NCBI GenBank assembly: GCA_019114415.1 | Contig: DXFO01000003.1 | Coordinates: 1 to 64,000, forward strand | Source: Candidatus Gemmiger faecavium | Lineage (GTDB): Bacteria > Bacillota > Clostridia > Oscillospirales > Ruminococcaceae | Length of the DNA: 64,000 bases | Direction: 5' to 3' | Shown here: positions 47,100 through 57,980 of the stretch, piece by piece | Layout: the number at the start of each line of letters is the position of its first letter | How positions within the stretch are numbered: the first letter of the stretch is position 1 | The notes under the pieces: model-generated | The model's database searches: none | What the model saw: the letters and a program-made list of their open reading frames with translations, nothing else | What the model was told of the DNA's origin: nothing | Translations under genes and position numbers: made by a program

Positions 47100-47172
47100 G
47101 TATTAGGCCGAAATACACTGCTTGCCGGGCAGGGGATTCCGGCTTCAATATGCACGCAAGGAGAAGCCAATT

Positions 47173-50163
47173 ATGGATGAAACAAGAGAGAAGAAAAGAC
47201 AATTCAAGCGCGCTTACAAAAAGGCAAAACGCAAGGCACTGGGTCCCTGGAAAGTGCTGTGCATCCTCTGCCTGGTAGTATCGCTTGTGGCAACGCCGCT
47301 GTATGCGGTTTTGCATGTATTCGACAACACGGTCGCGGCCTTTGTGGGCGGCACCTTCTGGCAGCTGGAGAACGAGGACCCCGGCGCCCAGTATTTTACC
47401 TCGGACTTTGATACGGCAGAGGAAATGGTCGACTACGGCCTGGAACTCTGCGAGCAGGTGGAGGCCGAAGGCGCGGCCCTGCTGCTGAACAATAACAGCG
47501 CTCTGCCTTTGGCCTAGGGCGCTGCGGTCAGCTGCTTTTCCACCTCCTCCGTCAACCTGGTCTACGGCGGCACCGGTTCCGGCAACATCGATGCATCCAG
47601 CGCCGACACCCTGAAGGACGCGCTGGAAAAGGCTGGATTCTCGGTCAATGAGACGCTTTGGAACTTCTACACCGAAGGCCCCGGCAGCGAGTACCTGCGC
47701 GTGGGCGGCACCGGCGTCCTGTCCACCGGTGCAGAGATCAACGAGGCTCCCTGGAGCGTCTACACCGAGGACGTGATCTCTTCCGTTTCGGAGTACGGCG
47801 ATGCAGCCATCGTGGTCCTGTCCCGCGTCGGCGGCGAAGGCGCGGACCTGAGCTATCAGGGCACCAACTACCTGGCTCTCAGCGACGTGGAAAAGGAAAT
47901 GATGCAGAACGTCATGTCCCTCAAGGAACAGGGCGCTGTGGATAAGATCATCGTTCTCATCAACTCGGCCAACCCCCTGCAGGTCGATTTCCTCAAGAAC
48001 AATGATTATAATGTAGACGCCTGCCTGTGGATCGGCGACGTGGGCATTTCCGGCATCAATGCCGTGGCCGAGATCCTTTCCGGCGACGTCAACCCGTCCG
48101 GCAGCCTGGTGGATACCTACTGCTACGACAACCATTCTTCGCCCGCCATGCAGAACTTCACCCCCATCACCTACGAGGGCTACACGGAGGGCATCGTCCC
48201 CGCAAATGCCAGCACCTATATGATCTATCAGGAAGGCATTTACGTCGGATACAAATATTATGAGACCCGCTACGAAGATGTGGTTATGGGCACCGGCAAC
48301 GCCGGCGACTATGCCTATGCCGACACCGTGGCGTTCCCCTTTGGCTACGGCCTGAGCTACACCGACTTTGCTTACAGCAACATGCAGGTGACTTATGACG
48401 CAGTGGCCGACCAGTTCCACGTGGCAGTCACCGTCACCAACACCGGCGATACCTACGCGGGCAAGGAAACGGTGCAGATCTACGCCCAGAGCCCCTACAC
48501 CGACTACGACAAGGAAAACGGCGTTGAGAAAGCCTCCGTCACCCTGGTAGGCTTCGGCAAGACTGCGGAACTGGCTCCCGGTGCATCGGAGACGCTGGAC
48601 ATTGTGGTCGGGCGCCGCGACATTGCTTCCTTTGATACTTACGGCATCGGAACCTATATCATCGAGGCAGGGGACTACTACCTGACTGCCGCAACGGATG
48701 CCCACAATGCGGTCAATAACATTCTGGCGGCCAAGGGCTATACCGTCGCCAACGGCATGACCGAGGACGGCGACCCCGCCCTGACCTACACCTGGAACGA
48801 GGCTGTTCTGGATGCGGCTTCCTACGCTACCAGCGAGAACGGCACCCCCATCACCAATCAGCTGTCCGATGCAGACCCCAACCTGTACGCGGGTCTCGAT
48901 ACTCAGGTTACCTGGCTGAGCCGCAGCGACTGGACCGGCACCTTCCCCAGCCAGCCGGTGCAGCTTGCTTTGACGGAGCAGCTGACCGCAGACCTGCAGG
49001 ACGTCCAGTATGATCCTGCCGACTACGAAACTGCCACCATGCCCCGTATGGGTGCGGACAACGGCCTGCGTCTGTATGACATGATCGGCCTGGAGTACGA
49101 CGATCCCCAGTGGGAGACCCTGCTGGATCAGCTGACCTTTGACGAGATGGTCTCCCTGATCGGCGACTCCTTCCACTGGAGAATGCCCGCCAAGTCCATC
49201 GAAGCTCCCGGCACCCGCGATGAGAACGGCCCCCAGGGCCTGACGGCTTCGCTGCTGGGCTCCGGTGCAACGCAGCTTACCGCCACCGCTTTCACTTCCG
49301 AGGACGTCATGGCGGCGACCTTCAACACCGACCTGATGTACCAGATCGGCAACGTCATCGGCAACAACTGCCTGCAGGCGGACATTGTATGCCTGTACGG
49401 CCCCGGCAACAACATCCACCGCACGCCCTACGGCGGCCGTAACTTCGAGTACTACTCCGAAGATGGCTTCCTGTCCGGCAAGATGTCGGCCTACGAGGTC
49501 AAGGGCATCCAGGATAAGGGCGTCGATGTGGTCATGAAGCACTTCGCCCTCAACGACAGTGAGCAGGACCGTATCGGTCTGGGCGTCTGGCTCAACGAGC
49601 AGGCCGCCCGTGAGGTCTACCTGAAAGCCTTCCAGGCTCCCTTTGAGGAGGGCAACGCCAACGGCGTCATGACCGCCTACACCCGTTGGGGCGCCACCTG
49701 GTCCGGCGGCAACAAGGGCCTGATGACCAACATCATGCGCGGAGAATGGGGCAGCGACGGCATGTCCATCACCGACAACGTCCTGACCACTTATGTCAAC
49801 GGCGTGGACGGCATCATGGCCGGCGGCGTTACCACCTTTGACGCCATGCTGCCTTATGTCACCGACCAGCTTCCCAAGTACAAGGATGACGCGGTCATCG
49901 TCAACGCCATGCGTGAGGCCTGCCACCGCAACCTGTATGCGCTGGCCAATTCTTCCGGCATGAACGGCGTCGGTCCCAACACCACCGTCAAGCTGACCCG
50001 TCCCACCGTGGTCACCATGGCACAGATCATTTCCTGCGCAGCGATCTTCTTCATGCTGCTCTCCGCGGTGCTGTGGGTGCTGGGCGTCCGCAAATTCCGC
50101 AAGACGGAAGAGTATAAAGCGTTCAAGGCTTTCAAGGCACAGCGCAAGGCTTCCAAAGGCTGA
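47173..50163 (+). pseudogene. membrane-anchored, circularly permuted GH3 beta-glycosidase interrupted by an amber codon
   Basis: The frame of 996 codons is intact except for one TAG at 47515-47517 (codon 115), after NNNSALPLA. Order: a basic cytoplasmic start, a membrane helix (about 27-48), then the alpha/beta-sandwich domain that is normally C-terminal (EGAALLLNNNSALPL is its typical opening), a fibronectin-like part, then the TIM barrel, with DNGPQGL and the probable nucleophile Asp868 in GMSITDNV, and a last membrane helix. The domain order is inverted, as in Ruminococcus albus-type enzymes. A binding site (AGGAG) precedes 47173. Everything after the TAG is well conserved in frame, so the stop is recent, a read error, or read through. 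Possible internal restart at GTG 47701 would lack the anchor. Confidence 0.8.
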
Positions 50164-50229
50164 ACGTTCCGCTTTTGAAGAGAAAACACAGCGTCGTCAG
50201 ACGGAAATGAACTCATAAATCAGAGTCCG

Positions 50230-50273
50230 GCAACCGCCCGGCAGGTCAAAAGCCTGCCGGGCGGTTGCTTTTT
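50230..50273 (+). terminator. terminator of the GH3 gene
   Basis: GCAACCGCCCGGCAGG and its full reverse complement (16 base pairs) with a 7-base loop, then five T. Confidence 0.9.
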
Positions 50274-50583: not shown

Positions 50584-50612
50584 TTGATTTCCTACTGTTT
50601 TTATAGTAAAAT
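50584..50612 (+). promoter_or_regulatory. promoter of the M60 peptidase operon
   Basis: TTGATT (50584-50589), 17-base spacer, TAAAAT (50607-50612); leader of about 108 bases. Confidence 0.65.
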
Positions 50613-50726
50613 GCCTGTGCACTCAATGAGGAAATAATCTTAAAAAAGCAGCCCCGATCTTAGCCAGGAGTGATGCCGTTTTGACACGGCAGCTTTTGGG
50701 GCGGATACAGAAAGGATGAAATCCAA

Positions 50727-53700
50727 GTGAAAAGAGCCATCGCCACATTGCTGAGCTTTTGCATGATGCTTTCCATCATGGCACAGGTCTCGGTTGCGCG
50801 CGCGGAGGAAATGCCCGTGTCCGATCTTGCGGTACAGCAGACGGAAGTTTCCGAACAGGAAGCAGGGCAGAGCGAGGATGCGGTGTCGGAAGACACCGAG
50901 CCCCGTGCGGCTACTTCGGAGACTGCTGCTGAAGAAGAACTTGCAGAAGCGACCCCCTCCCAGGAGGATGAACTTTCCGTCAGTCTGATGGCGGAAGAGG
51001 AACCGGAGGAGGAACCCGCCGCGGAGGAGCTGGGGGATATCTCCGGTGTCGAAGTTTCCCTCCTGTCGGCCCTGACCCTCTACCGGGATGTCGACTTCAA
51101 CGTCGCCATCTACCGCGGAAAGGAACTGGTCGATGAAAAAACGGCAACTCTTTCCGCCAACACCCAGGGGAGCGCCCCTGCTTCTCAGTCGGTCCGCTTT
51201 TCCGACCTGGCCAACGGCACCTACACCCTGGCCGTCAGCGGAAGCGGGTTCGAGACCTATAAACAGGAGCTGACCGTTCAGGATAACGTGGCTTCGGTCC
51301 AGGTATACACTTCCTTCCTGGCCGGCTTTACATACAGCGACGATCAGCTCCATCCCGGTACTCTCATCATCGGTGACGCCACCGATGACGGCTCTGTGGA
51401 TCAGGAGGACGTCGACACCATTGTCGATCAGATCCAGGCGGGCAAAAATGAGGCCGGCGACCTGAACGGCGACGGCGTCGTCGATCTGGTGGACCTGCAG
51501 CTGCTTGCTGCGGTCTATCAGGATGGCCGGGACAATCTTTCCTCGGTAACCGCCCGCGTTTCCGAGAAGATGGCCCAGACCGGCACTGCCGAAGGCACCT
51601 CGGTAACCGGCGGCAGCCTGGAAGAGGTCATCGCCGGTACCGGCACCGTCTCGCTGCAGAACAGCAGCAGCGAGGCGATCTCCGAGGCAAACCCCGTCGA
51701 GGTCAGCTTCGACTTCACCTCCAAGCAGGAGACCGTCCAGATGGGCGGCATGGTCATCCAGACCCCGGCTGACAGCGGCAACGCCATCAGCAGCGCGGAG
51801 GTGACGGTGGAATATGTGGACCTGGAAACCGGTGAGACCGGGACCCTGCCCCTGACCATCGGCGGTGTGGCAGTGGCCCGCGCACGGGGCGCCAGCGCTC
51901 AGGTGGGCGCCGACGGTTCCATCGTGCTGGACTTCGGCAGACAGATCGCCGTCAAGAAAGTTACCATCAAGGTGACGGCCACGGCGGACAACACCAACCT
52001 TGCCGAGATCAGCAAGGTGGAGTTCGTCAACAATATGGAAAACCACATCCCGGCCCCCGAGATGAACATTCCCTCCGACCTCTCGGCGGAGACCGGCAAC
52101 AAGTCCTTTACTCTGACCTGGAGCAAGGAGACCAACGTCACCGGCTACGAAGTCAAGATCGCCCAGGGTGGCAAGGAAGAGGTTATCCGTACCTCGGTCA
52201 ACAGCCTGTCGGTCACCACCTTCGGCGGTGCCAAGCTGGAAAACGGCACTCAGTACACCGTCAGCGTCCAGTCCGTCAATGGCGAGTGGCGCAGCGGTTA
52301 CAGCGAGTCCATCACCGTCACCCCCAAGGCGGACAAGATCCCCGCAGCTCCGGACGGCCTGACCCTGACTGGCCGCTTCCAGCGCATCGATGCTTCCTGG
52401 CTCTCTTCCAAGGATGCCGACAGCTATAATGTTTACTACCGCAAGCAGGGGGACGAGGCTTTTGCCAGCACCACGGGTGTTACCGGCACCAGCCTGACCA
52501 TCCGCAACCTGGAAAACAACGCCAAGTATGAAGTTTATGTCACGGCCGTCAATGAACTGGGTGAGAGCCCGGCTTCGCTGACTTCCGTTGTCAGCACCGC
52601 CAATGTCACCCCGGTGAACATGCCTTCCTATAAGCTCATCAACACTCCGGAGTCGGCTGGTGTTCCCAGCAGCCGTGTTGTCAAGGCGACCCATTCGTCC
52701 GGCTACATGAAGGACAGCCCGCTGGATTCCGGCAACAGCGCCTGGGGCATTGTGGACGGTGACTTTACTTCCTGGTACGCCCTGGACGACTGGGATGACG
52801 GCGCGATGTACCCCGACGAGGGCGGTGTCCGTGTGACCTTCGACCAGAAGTATCACATCGGCAGCATTTCCCTGACCCAGATCGAAGACTACGGCTATTA
52901 TCAGAACGTCCGCGTCTTTGCCCATAACGCCGAGGGAAAAGAGTATCAGGTTCCCGGCGTCAGCATTACCAAGCACGGCGACGGCAACGGCCGCTACTAC
53001 TACACCATCAAGATCGCAGGCGGTGTTGAGACCGATTATCTCCGCGTCTGCGTGGGCCACCAGTATAACTACCGGAGCATCACCATTTCCGAGATGCGCT
53101 TCTATGCCTACGACTCTCTGGAGGCGGACATTCTGGCGCTGTACGGCGACGACCTCCATGTCACTCTGGCGGAGGGTGTCGACGAGGAAACCATCAATGC
53201 ACTGGAAGAGCGCCTGAACACCCGGGACAATGGCGAACTCCATCCCGACTACAACAAGCTCAAGACCGAGCTGGACAATGCCCGCGGTCTGCTGCTGGAG
53301 TCTCTCAATGATGTGGTTTCCATCCACACCTCCATCACCGCACAGAGCGACGGTCACCTGGGCATCAACGGCCTGAACGCATGGCAGCCCCTGGGCGTGA
53401 CCGCCCATGCAGGGGAGGAGCTGGTCATCTACGTGGGCAGCAGCACCGGCACCACCGGCAGCAACGCGGCTCTGCAGCTGATCGCTTCCCAGTACAATGC
53501 CGAGTACGGCCAGGTCGTTTCCAAGCCCATCCAGCTCAAGGTCGGCCGCAACGAGATCATGGTCCCCGACCTGGTCAGCTTTGACGCGGAGCACGGCGGT
53601 GCGCTGTATGTGCAGTACACCGGCGCCAGCAACGCGGCACAGTATTCCGTCCGTGTCAGCGGCGGCGTCAAGATCCCCACCCTGGACCTGTACGGCATCG

Positions 53701-56003
53701 ACGATGCCGGCCAGCGCCTGGAACTGGTCACCGCCTACATGGAGGAACTGGAGACCTACACCGCACAGCTGGAGGAACAGCACAACAGCACCCATAAGGA
53801 TTCCGGCATTGCCGCGGTGGATCACGATTACAATGCACAGGAGTGCATCCTGAACACCACCGACATCGTTCTGGATCAGATGATGCTTTCCGTCCCGGCA
53901 TCTCAGATCCTGGCAGGCCTCAGCAGTGACAACACCGCGGCCCGTGCCCAGGAACTGCTGAACTCTCTGGATGCCATGGATCAGATGATGATCCTCTTCT
54001 ACCAGCATAAGGGCCTGACCAATCTGGCGGACGCTGGCGCCAAGAACCGTCTGCCCGCCCAGCATCTGAACATCCGTTACATGCGTATGTTTGCAGGCGC
54101 CTTCATGTATGCCGCCGGCAACCACATCGGCATCGGCTGGGATTCCGTCACCGGTCTGTCCCAGGGCAATCCCGTTGTCCTCAACGAGGACGGCACCTAC
54201 GCCAGCGGCAACTTCTTCGGCTGGGGCATTGCCCACGAGATCGGCCACAACATCAACAACAACAAGTACACGGTGGTCGAGGTCACCAACAACTTCTTCT
54301 CCCAGATCTCCCAGATTTCGGAAGGCGTACGCTTCAGCTACGATGACGTCTACAAGAAGGTCACCAGCGGCACCAAGGGCCATTCCGACAACGTCTTTAC
54401 CCAGCTGGCTCTCTACTGGCAGCTTCACCTTGCCTACGACACCAGCTACGAGTACGAGATCTACGACAACTACAAGGATCTGTTCAACGGACGCTTCTTT
54501 GCCCGTGTGGACACCTATGCCCGCAACCCGGCGGCTGCGCCCAACAACGGCACGGCCCTGACCCTGGGCGGAGATGCGGACCAGAACCTGATGCGCCTTG
54601 CCTGCGCGGCGGCGGAGAAGGATCTGACCGATTTCTTCCAGCGCTGGGGCATGACTCCCGACCAGACCACGGCTGCTTATGCCGCACAGTTTGAGAAGGA
54701 GACCCGCGCCATCTACTACGTCAACGACGATGCCCGTGACTACGCCTTCACCCATGACGCCTCCGCAAGCATTGCCGGCCAGTCCGTCATGAGCGGGGAG
54801 ACCACGGCAGTCGTGGACGAAAAGACCCCCAACCAGGTCAACCTGACCCTCCAGAGTACGGTGGACAGCGGCCTGCTGCTGGGTTACGAGATTTCCCGCG
54901 TCACCTATGAAAACGGCAAGGCCCAGACCGAGGTCGTCGGCTTTACCACCGGCGACAGCTACACCGACACCATCACCACGGTGAACAACCGCACCGTGAC
55001 CTATGTGGTCACTGCGGTGGATAAGTTCCTCAACCGTTCCGAGAGCCTGACCCTGCCCACCGTCAAAATCAGCCATGACGGCAGCCATGACAAGTCTCTG
55101 TGGACCGCTGCCACCAACATGGTTTCGGAGCAGGATCACACCCACGACGCCACCGAGAGCGATCCCTGCGAGCCGGAGACGGAATCCGCCATCCGCTATG
55201 TCATCGACAACAGCAAGTCCACTACCTTTGTGGGCAAGGCGGAATCCGGCCAGGCCATTGTCACGCTGGACTTCCACAAGAGTCTGGCTGTGACCGGCTT
55301 CAAGTACACCGTTACCTCCGGTACGCCCATCGAAAACTACGAGATTCAGATCACCACCAACGGCAGCCAGTGGACCACGGTTGCCAGCGGCACCTTCACC
55401 GACGATTCCGTCAACGTGGTCTACTTCCGCAACCAGAACAACGATCCGTGGGTCGCTACCTATGATGCAACGCAGATTCGCCTGATCGTCAAGACTCCTG
55501 CCAACACCGAGATCTCCATCAGCGAGCTGGATGTCCTGGGTCCCACCGGCGACAACGTCGAGCTGCTGGCCAATGGCATCGGCTACCTGGAGAGTGAATA
55601 CCGCTTTGCCGAAGGTGACGGCAACGTCATCCCCGCAGGCTCGCTGATCTTTACCGGCGAGTACAAGGGCAACCCGGCTTACAACGTGGTGCTTCTCTAC
55701 GACCAGGACGGCAGCCTTGTGGGCGGTGTGGACAGCGACGGCGACCTGCGTGCCCAGCAGATCATCCTGGCGCCCGATCCGGGCAACGGGGAACTGGGTG
55801 AGGTCAGCGACGGCATCTGGGTCTACTGGATCGAACCCGGTGACCTGGAAGGCTTCACGCTGCCCGACTCGGTGCGCGCCGAGCTGTACCGCGTGGACAA
55901 CGCCATCACCAACGAAGGCCAGCGTCTGACCGCGGACACGCTTCTGGTGGAACTGCCGGAAGAGCTTCCCACCATCACCATTGCGTCTGACAATGCAGAC
56001 TGA
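50727..56003 (+). CDS. secreted M60-like (mucin-type) metallopeptidase with dockerin-like module
   Basis: A 1758-residue secreted protein starting at GTG with AAAGGA upstream. Order: signal peptide (1-26, ending SVARA); acidic linker (27-105); a beta-rich domain; a dockerin-like pair of calcium loops (about 214-265: GDATDDGSVDQED and GDLNGDGVVDLVD); two fibronectin III domains (about 448-625); an F5/8-type carbohydrate-binding domain (about 651-812); an M60 catalytic domain (about 885-1350) with the zinc motif HEIGH (1170-1174) and Glu1185 in the EVTNN context; another FnIII and F5/8 domain; a C-terminal domain. M60 enzymes cleave mucins and O-glycoproteins. No LPxTG or membrane anchor is present, so attachment probably needs the dockerin-like part. 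It is followed 18 bases later by an anchored partner gene. Confidence 0.88.
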   Translation: MKRAIATLLSFCMMLSIMAQVSVARAEEMPVSDLAVQQTEVSEQEAGQSEDAVSEDTEPRAATSETAAEEELAEATPSQEDELSVSLMAEEEPEEEPAAEELGDISGVEVSLLSALTLYRDVDFNVAIYRGKELVDEKTATLSANTQGSAPASQSVRFSDLANGTYTLAVSGSGFETYKQELTVQDNVASVQVYTSFLAGFTYSDDQLHPGTLIIGDATDDGSVDQEDVDTIVDQIQAGKNEAGDLNGDGVVDLVDLQLLAAVYQDGRDNLSSVTARVSEKMAQTGTAEGTSVTGGSLEEVIAGTGTVSLQNSSSEAISEANPVEVSFDFTSKQETVQMGGMVIQTPADSGNAISSAEVTVEYVDLETGETGTLPLTIGGVAVARARGASAQVGADGSIVLDFGRQIAVKKVTIKVTATADNTNLAEISKVEFVNNMENHIPAPEMNIPSDLSAETGNKSFTLTWSKETNVTGYEVKIAQGGKEEVIRTSVNSLSVTTFGGAKLENGTQYTVSVQSVNGEWRSGYSESITVTPKADKIPAAPDGLTLTGRFQRIDASWLSSKDADSYNVYYRKQGDEAFASTTGVTGTSLTIRNLENNAKYEVYVTAVNELGESPASLTSVVSTANVTPVNMPSYKLINTPESAGVPSSRVVKATHSSGYMKDSPLDSGNSAWGIVDGDFTSWYALDDWDDGAMYPDEGGVRVTFDQKYHIGSISLTQIEDYGYYQNVRVFAHNAEGKEYQVPGVSITKHGDGNGRYYYTIKIAGGVETDYLRVCVGHQYNYRSITISEMRFYAYDSLEADILALYGDDLHVTLAEGVDEETINALEERLNTRDNGELHPDYNKLKTELDNARGLLLESLNDVVSIHTSITAQSDGHLGINGLNAWQPLGVTAHAGEELVIYVGSSTGTTGSNAALQLIASQYNAEYGQVVSKPIQLKVGRNEIMVPDLVSFDAEHGGALYVQYTGASNAAQYSVRVSGGVKIPTLDLYGIDDAGQRLELVTAYMEELETYTAQLEEQHNSTHKDSGIAAVDHDYNAQECILNTTDIVLDQMMLSVPASQILAGLSSDNTAARAQELLNSLDAMDQMMILFYQHKGLTNLADAGAKNRLPAQHLNIRYMRMFAGAFMYAAGNHIGIGWDSVTGLSQGNPVVLNEDGTYASGNFFGWGIAHEIGHNINNNKYTVVEVTNNFFSQISQISEGVRFSYDDVYKKVTSGTKGHSDNVFTQLALYWQLHLAYDTSYEYEIYDNYKDLFNGRFFARVDTYARNPAAAPNNGTALTLGGDADQNLMRLACAAAEKDLTDFFQRWGMTPDQTTAAYAAQFEKETRAIYYVNDDARDYAFTHDASASIAGQSVMSGETTAVVDEKTPNQVNLTLQSTVDSGLLLGYEISRVTYENGKAQTEVVGFTTGDSYTDTITTVNNRTVTYVVTAVDKFLNRSESLTLPTVKISHDGSHDKSLWTAATNMVSEQDHTHDATESDPCEPETESAIRYVIDNSKSTTFVGKAESGQAIVTLDFHKSLAVTGFKYTVTSGTPIENYEIQITTNGSQWTTVASGTFTDDSVNVVYFRNQNNDPWVATYDATQIRLIVKTPANTEISISELDVLGPTGDNVELLANGIGYLESEYRFAEGDGNVIPAGSLIFTGEYKGNPAYNVVLLYDQDGSLVGGVDSDGDLRAQQIILAPDPGNGELGEVSDGIWVYWIEPGDLEGFTLPDSVRAELYRVDNAITNEGQRLTADTLLVELPEELPTITIASDNAD

Positions 56004-56021
56004 TTGAAAAAGGAGAACGAC

Positions 56022-56966
56022 ATGAAAAAAATGTTTGCCACCCTGCTGTTTGGCAGTGTGCTTGCGGTCACGGCTCTTGCCGTGCCGGCACAGGGCAGCG
56101 GCGAGGTGACGCTCAGCGCCAGCTCCGGCGGCGCACAGGTCAGCCTGGAAATGCCTGCGGACACGGTGCAGGATGTTACCACCATGCACATGAGCTTTGT
56201 GATAAGTTCCGACGCAGACATCAGTGCAAACTTTGATTTTAACGATGCGCTGAAGAGCAGCGTGCAGGAATCCCGTTATGAAAACGGCCGCCTGGACGTT
56301 TTCATCTCGGGCAGCCAGAATATCTTCACCGACGGTACCCTCAATCTGGGTGAGGTCCTTCTCACCACCGCCGACGGTACGGCGGCGCAGGCAACGGTCA
56401 GCGTGGATGGGGATTCCATCGAGCTTCTCAACGCGGCGTACGGCAGCCCTGAGATGCCGGAGATCGCCCCTGTGGAGGCAGAAGTGAGTGTCAGCGGAAC
56501 GAACTCCGGTTCCGGCGGCGACAACGGGAACAACTCCGGCAACGGCGGCTCGGGGAACCAATCCGGCTCCGGAAACAGCTCCAATTCGGGCAATGGTTCC
56601 AACGGCTCCCAGAGCACCACGGCACAGAGCGAAACCTCCGGCGTTACGGGCGGCACTTCGGTGACCACGCCCGCGACCCAGAACGGCGGTTCTTCTTCCG
56701 GCCAGAGCGGTAGCTCCAATAAGGGCAACTCCGCCACGGCCACGCCCGACCCGGAAAGCACTTCCTCTCCCGAGGAAGAGACTTCCCGGCCGGACAACGC
56801 GGAGAACACCAAGCCGGAAGGCCAGACAGAGGCAGCTTCCACCCCGGAGCAGGCCACGGACGAACAGCAGCAGAGCAGCGGCTTCCCGCTGATGCTCATC
56901 GTTGCGGTGATCGCTGTACTTGCCATTGCGGCAGGAGTCGTCATCTTCATCCGCCGCCGCAGCTAA
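56022..56966 (+). CDS. membrane-anchored surface protein with possible cohesin-like domain
   Basis: A 314-residue exported protein. A signal peptide (about 1-26) is followed by a 125-residue beta-rich domain whose pattern (NGRLDVFISGSQNIFTDGTL and LGEVLLTTADGTA) resembles cohesin domains, then about 130 residues of Gly/Ser/Asn/Thr/Glu-rich linker, a membrane helix and a short RRRS tail. The extended linker would present the domain beyond the wall. Start at 56022 follows AAAAAGGAGA. The gene is in one operon with the dockerin-bearing M60 peptidase, so an anchoring role is attractive. The cohesin assignment is from pattern only. Confidence 0.6.
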   Translation: MKKMFATLLFGSVLAVTALAVPAQGSGEVTLSASSGGAQVSLEMPADTVQDVTTMHMSFVISSDADISANFDFNDALKSSVQESRYENGRLDVFISGSQNIFTDGTLNLGEVLLTTADGTAAQATVSVDGDSIELLNAAYGSPEMPEIAPVEAEVSVSGTNSGSGGDNGNNSGNGGSGNQSGSGNSSNSGNGSNGSQSTTAQSETSGVTGGTSVTTPATQNGGSSSGQSGSSNKGNSATATPDPESTSSPEEETSRPDNAENTKPEGQTEAASTPEQATDEQQQSSGFPLMLIVAVIAVLAIAAGVVIFIRRRS

Positions 56967-57004
56967 CCTGCAAAAGCCCGCACTCGTGAGTGCGGCAGCC
57001 CAAT

Positions 57005-57056
57005 AAAAAAGCAACACCGGTCAGACGAAACCGTCCGGCCGGTGTTGCTTTTTTTA
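57005..57056. terminator. bidirectional terminator between the M60 operon and the DUF975 gene
   Basis: AAAAAAGCAACACCGG and CCGGTGTTGCTTTTTTT arms. A smaller hairpin (CCGCACTC/GAGTGCGG, near 56976-56995) precedes it. Confidence 0.88.
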
Positions 57057-57063
57057 TTTTGGT

Positions 57064-57867
57064 TTATGCCCGGGACATATTGTGGCGTACAAAACCGCCC
57101 AGTTCGCTTTCATCGCTGTAACCATAGGCAAGGGCCTTGGTGCGCAGCGCAGCGTAAAGCTCGGCATAGGTGGCCTCCAGATAAGCGACCAGGAAGATCT
57201 GACCGAAACCGAAGGTGACCAGACAGAGCAGCTCCCAGCCCAGGAAGGAGAGATCCAGCAGGAACGAATGGAACTTTTCACCGTCCATCATCTGACGGCT
57301 GAGTTCCATGGCGCGGGTGGTGGTAAGGTAGGGGTTTTCCGCCAGAAGATAGGGAACCATGCGATAGGTGAAGGACCAGTAGATTCCCGGCACAATGAGC
57401 AGGCTGCCCAGGGCAATTTTCAGGTTGGTCAGAAACAGGACCTTCACCACATTGAGATACGGGGAACGGAAGATGCCGAACATCGTCCCGAACGGCGCGC
57501 CGCCCTGACGGCTTTCCATCATGTAGCGGCAAAGGCCGACGGAAAGGGGCCCCGAGACAAAAGCACCGTAAACGGTTCCGATGATCAGTCCGATGATCAG
57601 CCCGACGAAAATGGCGAACACAATGCCGCTTTGCACCAGAAATTCCCAGATCCCGTACAGGGAATAGCCGTCATTGTTTCCGGTCCACACATCCGGCGTC
57701 ATAAAATCCTGCACGAGGGACTGCGTATACTGGAACTGACCGGATAAGTCGGAGAAAACGCTGCTCGCGCCGAACAACCCGGCGATCAGACAGACGGCGG
57801 TACACATCCAGTACCGTCCGGAAAGCGCCTGTTTGGCGTTGTGTTTTAACAGACCGCATGTCCACAT
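57064..57867 (-). CDS. DUF975 family membrane protein
   Basis: A 267-residue protein with about five hydrophobic segments. The YRMVPYLLAENPYLTTTRAM region and the glycine-rich turn GLIIGLIIGTVYGAF match the DUF975 family of Firmicutes, of unknown function. I use the second in-frame ATG (57867), eight bases from AGGAGG; the first ATG (57873) is only two bases from it. Single gene. Confidence 0.85.
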   Translation of the reverse strand: MWTCGLLKHNAKQALSGRYWMCTAVCLIAGLFGASSVFSDLSGQFQYTQSLVQDFMTPDVWTGNNDGYSLYGIWEFLVQSGIVFAIFVGLIIGLIIGTVYGAFVSGPLSVGLCRYMMESRQGGAPFGTMFGIFRSPYLNVVKVLFLTNLKIALGSLLIVPGIYWSFTYRMVPYLLAENPYLTTTRAMELSRQMMDGEKFHSFLLDLSFLGWELLCLVTFGFGQIFLVAYLEATYAELYAALRTKALAYGYSDESELGGFVRHNMSRA

Positions 57868-57980
57868 AATCATAACCTCCTGCGGACCGGCGTTTAAGTT
57901 GCCGGATTGTTTGATGATCGTTCCATTATATCATGAACGTCATAAAATTAAAACCGTGGAAATGCTCGGCCCGGCAATAT

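Follow-up and report, generated by a model that had tools for sequence, protein, structure and literature searches.

In a 64,000-nucleotide stretch of the genome of Candidatus Gemmiger faecavium (GCA_019114415.1, contig DXFO01000003.1, positions 1 to 64,000; hereafter the window), we analyzed two adjacent genes, one for an M60 peptidase and one for a small cohesin-like protein. They very probably encode a one-enzyme, one-anchor surface complex, in which the M60 protein is docked through its X-dockerin onto the cohesin of its neighbour. A minimal cell-surface docked mucinase had been proposed for this locus in an earlier note made from the sequence alone, and the proposal is supported by both folds including the X-dockerin dyad, the operon-like gene order, the conservation of the pair, its single occurrence in most carriers searched and a covariation between the two partners. 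We infer that the two bind physically, that this depends on calcium, that the complex is located at the cell surface and that mucin is its substrate. The central features are:

50727..56003, + strand: M60 peptidase gene, 1758 amino acids, GTG start, from the open reading frame (ORF) list; signal-peptide-like start, without an anchor of its own
51045..51314, + strand: X-module (Ig-like / CarboxypepD_reg-like), residues 107-196
51360..51512, + strand: dockerin module with two calcium-loop repeats, residues 212-262, by conservation, profile match and AlphaFold2 (AF2)
53976..54650, + strand: M60 catalytic region, residues 1084-1308, by Pfam and the solved relatives 7jfs, 5kdj and 6xsz
56022..56966, + strand: cohesin anchor protein gene, 314 amino acids, ATG start, from the ORF list, with a ribosome-binding-like site
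56097..56495, + strand: cohesin domain, residues 26-158, by AF2 with Foldseek and VIA matches
56895..56951, + strand: C-terminal transmembrane-like stretch, residues 292-310, hydropathy 3.29, followed by RRRS

As modelled, the dockerin of the M60 protein is part of an X-dockerin dyad, the kind found in cellulosome surface attachment. Its paired calcium loops, already noticed in the earlier note, are located at residues 217-228 and 245-256. D217, D228, D245 and D256 are invariant in 13 sequences, and across 77 sequences D217, D228 and D256 remain invariant while D245 is kept in at least 90%. The window sequence alone reaches 12.8 bits against Pfam Dockerin_1 (PF00404), below the cut-off of 22.9; 69 of the 77 family members match this model at E ≤ 0.1 (best 2e-9). 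A family profile matches solved dockerins, with 1.1e-7 for the CelS dockerin as the best value. The AF2 model has two loop-helix repeats, with helices at model residues 127-139 and 155-164, and both the model and the structure matches place the X-module packed on the dockerin, as in a type II dyad. The structure match spans both modules and shows a clear gap to unrelated folds.

By its predicted fold the small protein is a cohesin, outside the Pfam family as modelled. The AF2 model of the domain (predicted local distance difference test score 92, predicted template modelling score 0.85) is a jelly roll, and the Foldseek and VIA rankings are headed by cohesins that cover nearly the whole domain. 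The earlier note had named a non-cohesin fold as the outcome that would overturn it, and all three methods gave a cohesin-like one. Its remaining description of this gene also held: the ATG at 56022 lies 18 bases after the M60 stop, and a signal-peptide-like start (judged by eye), the beta domain, a Gly/Ser/Thr linker and the C-terminal hydrophobic stretch follow each other. The cohesin assignment rests on folds, since the sequence-level searches (phmmer, which gave no link from the small protein to cohesins, a profile search of the PDB and hhalign) all failed.

Conservation of the pair was analyzed in two samples. The first comprises 297 family genomes (G numbers), in which M60 and cohesin were searched separately; the second comprises the best 80 named loci (L numbers) by similarity to the dockerin-containing M60 and is hence biased toward dockerin. 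The samples overlap, at least 9 of the 80 named loci being G-numbered genomes (among them L069 = G151, L142 = G237 and L079 = G473). Cohesin profile A1 contains two members of a divergent group (G029, G145) by construction, and profile A5 includes sequences from several genomes that it later found.

Homologs of the first domain of the small protein are located directly 3' of M60 homologs in the family genomes. M60 occurs in 31 of the 297 and the A5 cohesin in 18, of which 17 are strong matches beside M60 (in G205, one of two contig-split pieces). The X-dockerin is unreadable in two of these 17, G201, where the contig starts inside the gene, and G257, where the gene is broken; both have the cohesin. 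Among the other 14 M60 genomes, 11 carry an X-dockerin and an adjoining divergent cohesin-like gene, and three are without X-dockerin (G115, G184, G243); the downstream side of the latter is on the contig in G115 only, with no cohesin there. Judged from sequence, a cohesin-like neighbour thus appears beside 26 of 26 M60 genes with a readable X-dockerin; in 11 of these pairs it is the more divergent form, found with profile A1 and cohesin-like by sequence only, and the G270 copy is cut by the contig end. The M60 of G031 is split over two ORFs. In two genomes of the same genus neither M60 nor the A5 cohesin was found, nor any dockerin at E ≤ 0.001. G021 has a weak A5 match (47 residues, E 8.4e-4) and no M60.

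All 80 named loci have the dockerin, and 78 have an adjacent or fused cohesin; the contigs of the remaining two end 152 and 0 bases after M60. Profile A1 detects 77 of the 78 cohesins, L144 being found only with A5. The closest named M60 matches are from Gemmiger, and carriers include Lachnospiraceae, Ruminococcus-labelled metagenome-assembled genomes and Eggerthella sinensis. Since the pair is present in E. sinensis (Actinomycetota, L085) besides Clostridia, it was likely transferred across phyla. The same gene order, domain and anchor are found again in dozens of genomes, which argues that the pair is more than a chance arrangement. A second, divergent clade with M60, X-dockerin and a cohesin-like protein was also observed (L044, L045, L171, L172, L174-L176, L178, L180-L182), with 28-30% M60 identity where compared (L044, L045).

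Dockerins and cohesins were then counted in 19 genomes, 17 of them carriers, by a dockerin-profile search and the cohesin models. Exactly one dockerin at E ≤ 0.001 was found in 14 of the 17 carriers and none in G257 with its broken M60, while G201 and G473 gave 59 and 20 matches at E ≤ 1. The search for further dockerin proteins suggested by the earlier note returned for the window genome (2.55 Mb in 75 contigs, 92% complete) only the M60 dockerin as a complete module, plus one half-length match at E 0.15; with one complete dockerin and one cohesin, no multi-cohesin scaffold with many dockerin enzymes was found there. Three of the 19 genomes (G201, G473, G478) have Pfam cohesins. The A5 cohesin is single in 14, in two contig-split pieces in G205 and absent in four, including G029 and G145 with their divergent form. 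Ten genomes of named loci, two of them identical to G151 and G237, have one A5 cohesin each, together with one Pfam dockerin in six and 39-69 in four. These counts suggest that the two genes form a private pair in most carriers searched.

The two partners also appear to covary. In a mirror-tree analysis over 11 segments and 68 pairs, with the rest of M60 removed, the partial correlation with the cohesin is highest for the dockerin (0.257), followed by the C-terminal domain (0.203) and the X-module (0.185). Mutual information restricted to X-dockerin versus cohesin looked encouraging; a tree-corrected test was used because clade signal dominates the raw values. This test compared Pagel dependent and independent models for 71 pairs on a tree built from M60 without the X-dockerin, with automatic codings, taking from each of the 11 segments the 12 pairs with the strongest correlation. 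The top pair (likelihood ratio test (LRT) statistic 36.1) joins two residues:

51426..51428, + strand: dockerin D234, position 18 of repeat 1, covarying with cohesin R85
56274..56276, + strand: cohesin R85 (model residue 65, on the predicted strand 61-67), by AF2 and covariation

Here D/N at dockerin position 234 goes with R/K at model residue 65 of the cohesin: D or N is found in 51 of 53 loci with cohesin R and in 3 of 18 without it. Two X-module pairs follow (LRT 29.4 and 27.6), and the best pair of the other segments reaches 23.1; the two X-module signals suggest that this module, too, may contact the cohesin. In an earlier run, the D/N coding chosen after seeing the residue table gave 32.1 and the majority coding 19.6, with at most 18.1 for 24 control pairs. 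R85 adjoins the near-invariant Tyr86, and position 18 of the first repeat is among the recognition positions known for dockerins. The covariation is suggestive, though not proof, of a dockerin-cohesin contact.

How the cohesin protein is held was compared among the 78 cohesin proteins of the named loci, with a hydropathy threshold of 1.9 for transmembrane stretches. 55 end in such a stretch and 5 in an LPxTG signal plus hydrophobic tail; in 3 the cohesin is fused to M60 with a second dockerin behind it, and 7 run off the contig. The other 8 are anchorless by the threshold: four reach 1.64-1.86, one is cut short and three are truly without. A presumed LPxTG in L101 showed no sorting signal on recheck, and the protein was counted as transmembrane. 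The fusions (L115, L139, L141) contain X-dockerin, M60, cohesin and a second dockerin in one chain and come from genomes with 39-56 dockerins. In G201, with 59 dockerins and 6 Pfam cohesins, the cohesin protein carries two calcium-loop repeats and no transmembrane stretch. All four proteins with a dockerin in place of the membrane stretch thus belong to genomes rich in dockerins, which would be expected of a protein whose job is attachment. The cohesin protein of G668 (69 dockerins) runs off the contig (L126). Long Lys/Arg-rich tails were observed on the cohesin proteins of L077, L078, L080, L081, L082, L084, L097 and L106, and the anchorless proteins of L075, L089 and L138 end in apparent fn3-like or other beta repeats.

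Several results weigh against a docked, anchored enzyme. Pfam cohesin (PF00963) is matched by 1 of 71 cohesin sequences (E 0.013), hhalign to canonical cohesins gives a probability of 2%, and the cohesin profile found no match in the PDB. Mutual information over all columns shows no dockerin enrichment in the top 20-200, the top LRT fails a Bonferroni correction over all 523,868 codings screened (about 0.14), and the C-terminal domain, too, keeps a partial mirror-tree correlation. L075, L089 and L138 (3 of 78) have no evident anchor, and the three fusions, holding cohesin and X-dockerin in one chain, need no separate one. G473 retains the transmembrane stretch (L058) despite its 20 dockerins and 7 Pfam cohesins, so that anchor swapping is not strictly tied to dockerin number.

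Three other explanations were weighed. Cohesin and X-dockerin might bind mainly to build the enzyme, by self-closure or head-to-tail linking, with membrane attachment secondary. The fusions, with their N-terminal X-dockerin and a cohesin near the C-terminus, fit this, as do the single A5 cohesin in each of their genomes and the C-terminal domain, which is next to the cohesin in the fusions and tracks its divergence. However, the fusions also bear a second dockerin in dockerin-rich hosts and may attach otherwise, and 60 cohesin proteins of the 80 named loci end in a transmembrane stretch or LPxTG signal; we regard this explanation as unlikely. Somewhat less credible still is a co-inherited pair that does not bind, in which the X-dockerin would engage cohesins on different cells and the small protein would recognize another ligand, e.g. 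host glycans. The column-wise mutual information would agree with it, but most carriers searched hold a sole dockerin and a sole cohesin, and the best tree-corrected pair links the dockerin recognition helix to a cohesin strand. A third view, in which the small protein has a generic beta-sandwich fold and the calcium loops act as a structural spacer, neither serving in docking, is highly improbable, for despite similarity to canonical cohesins below sequence detection, cohesins top both structure rankings and the X-dockerin match covers both of its modules.

Conservation, single occurrence and covariation all indicate that the M60 enzyme and the cohesin protein belong together. The M60 glycopeptidase would be secreted without an anchor, with its X-dockerin at the N-terminus, and the secreted cohesin of the next gene would stay attached to the membrane through its C-terminal helix, from which a long flexible linker separates it. 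Following export, the X-dockerin, loaded with calcium, would bind the cohesin and keep the protease on the cell surface; there it could cut O-glycosylated (mucin-type) host proteins and release the fragments beside the cell. We consider it likely that a cohesin family unseen by sequence models and a private X-dockerin form a one-enzyme 'mini-cellulosome' displaying an M60 mucinase in many gut Clostridia (and Eggerthella), that in some dockerin-rich relatives this cohesin exchanged its membrane anchor for a dockerin or became part of the enzyme, which integrates the mucinase into a larger machine, and that the contact involves acidic dockerin position 18 and a basic cohesin strand residue.

The enzyme itself agrees with the earlier description of a 1758-residue M60 peptidase with a HEIGH...EVTNN motif. 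ORF 50727-56003 matches Peptidase_M60 (PF13402) with E = 2.8e-12 (47.2 bits, cut-off 25.8) and belongs to this family. HEIGH comprises residues 1170-1174 (54234-54248) and EVTNN contains E1185 (54279-54281); H1170, E1171, G1173, H1174 and E1185 are invariant in 12 of 12 aligned sequences, including that of the window. Solved relatives are 7jfs, 5kdj, 6xsz and 9pl8, some entries being named ZmpC/ZmpA glycopeptidase or O-glycopeptidase, and further ones titled F5/8 type C domain protein. By analogy to these relatives, mucin-type O-glycosylated proteins are probably the substrate. The last 120 residues contain no transmembrane-like stretch (best 19-residue hydropathy 0.74) and no LPxTG, as the claimed lack of an own anchor required. 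The several glycan-binding-type domains of the earlier note were found in part, as one F5/8 type C domain; otherwise two fn3 stretches score. The conserved C-terminal domain precedes the fused cohesin in the three fused relatives. No second M60 was found in the window's genome. The accessory domains and the promoter candidate are:

52071..52319, + strand: fibronectin type III domain 1, residues 449-531, Pfam fn3 2.7e-15
55176..55430, + strand: F5/8 type C (galactose-binding-like) domain, residues 1484-1568, Pfam 29.4 bits, cut-off 28.2
55560..55982, + strand: conserved C-terminal domain, residues 1612-1752, conserved across aligned sequences
50584..50612, + strand: sigma-70-like promoter candidate upstream of the M60 gene, from a consensus scan alone

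The two genes probably form one transcription unit, because the gap is only 18 bases, a scan for terminator-like sites found none on the + strand within it, a terminator-like hairpin (50229-50269, 3' of the preceding gene) and the promoter-like site lie upstream, and the next long downstream ORF judged to be a gene (57064-57873) runs in the other direction. Ribosome-binding-like sites precede both starts (aaaggatg for the M60 GTG, aaaggag for the cohesin ATG). The M60 leader holds a short perfect inverted repeat (TGCCG...CGGCA, 50674-50691) and gave no Rfam match to a known RNA. An antisense ORF of 2125 amino acids (50640-57017) was judged to be a codon-bias shadow of the + strand genes. The upstream GH3-like gene (47122-50163, + strand) encodes hydrophobic stretches at both termini and contains an in-frame stop at 47515-47517, for which decay, sequencing error and recoding are indistinguishable.

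The pair resembles type II X-dockerin/cohesin attachment of cellulosomes (PDB 2b59, 5m0y, 4u3s, 5k39) in its dyad of X-module and dockerin and in the cohesin sitting on a surface-anchored protein, here predicted. According to PMC12997984, the Limousia mucinolysome likewise assembles mucin-degrading enzymes that bear dockerins, among them peptidases, on the cohesin proteins of gut bacteria; unlike the present pair, it has 3-6 scaffoldins with up to 12 cohesins. Since no multi-cohesin scaffold was found in the window genome, its pair is neither a cellulosome nor a mucinolysome. Mucinolysomes were identified there by co-presence of Pfam cohesin and dockerin among 289,232 gut genomes, which the window-genome pair fails, and surveys requiring Pfam cohesin matches are expected to miss the present cohesin. 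The same paper describes single cohesins and pairwise assembly for the glycosidases of Clostridium perfringens ATCC 13124 (X82; PDB 2vo8, 2w1n, 2jh2); there the cohesin is within the glycosidase-domain protein, whereas here it forms a dedicated membrane anchor. In the classes of PMC11557425, the window protein with one cohesin and a C-terminal transmembrane helix fits the nonSLH-anchoring scaffoldins, and the L041 (one cohesin and a dockerin) and G201 proteins fit the monovalent adaptors; these classes were made for scaffoldins in cellulosome surveys, and a single dockerin is all that most of the carriers searched here have. With the M60 O-glycopeptidases (7jfs, 5kdj, 6xsz, 9pl8) the enzyme shares the catalytic region with HExGH and glutamate and the accessory modules, unlike them it would be attached by docking to a neighbour-encoded cohesin. 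No published description of such a pair was found within the open-access library searched.

Together with its variants, the pair provides an evolutionary series that leads from one docked enzyme to its integration among many dockerins, and possibly an orthogonal cohesin-dockerin family for protein engineering. A surface-attached mucinase becomes directly testable in named carrier strains, namely Gemmiger gallinarum DSM 109015, Parablautia muri D42-62, Fournierella massiliensis DSM 100451 and Eggerthella sinensis DSM 16107. The findings suggest that gut bacteria without cellulosomes, deemed cohesin-free by standard models, may hold a mucin-cutting protease on their surface by cohesin-dockerin docking.
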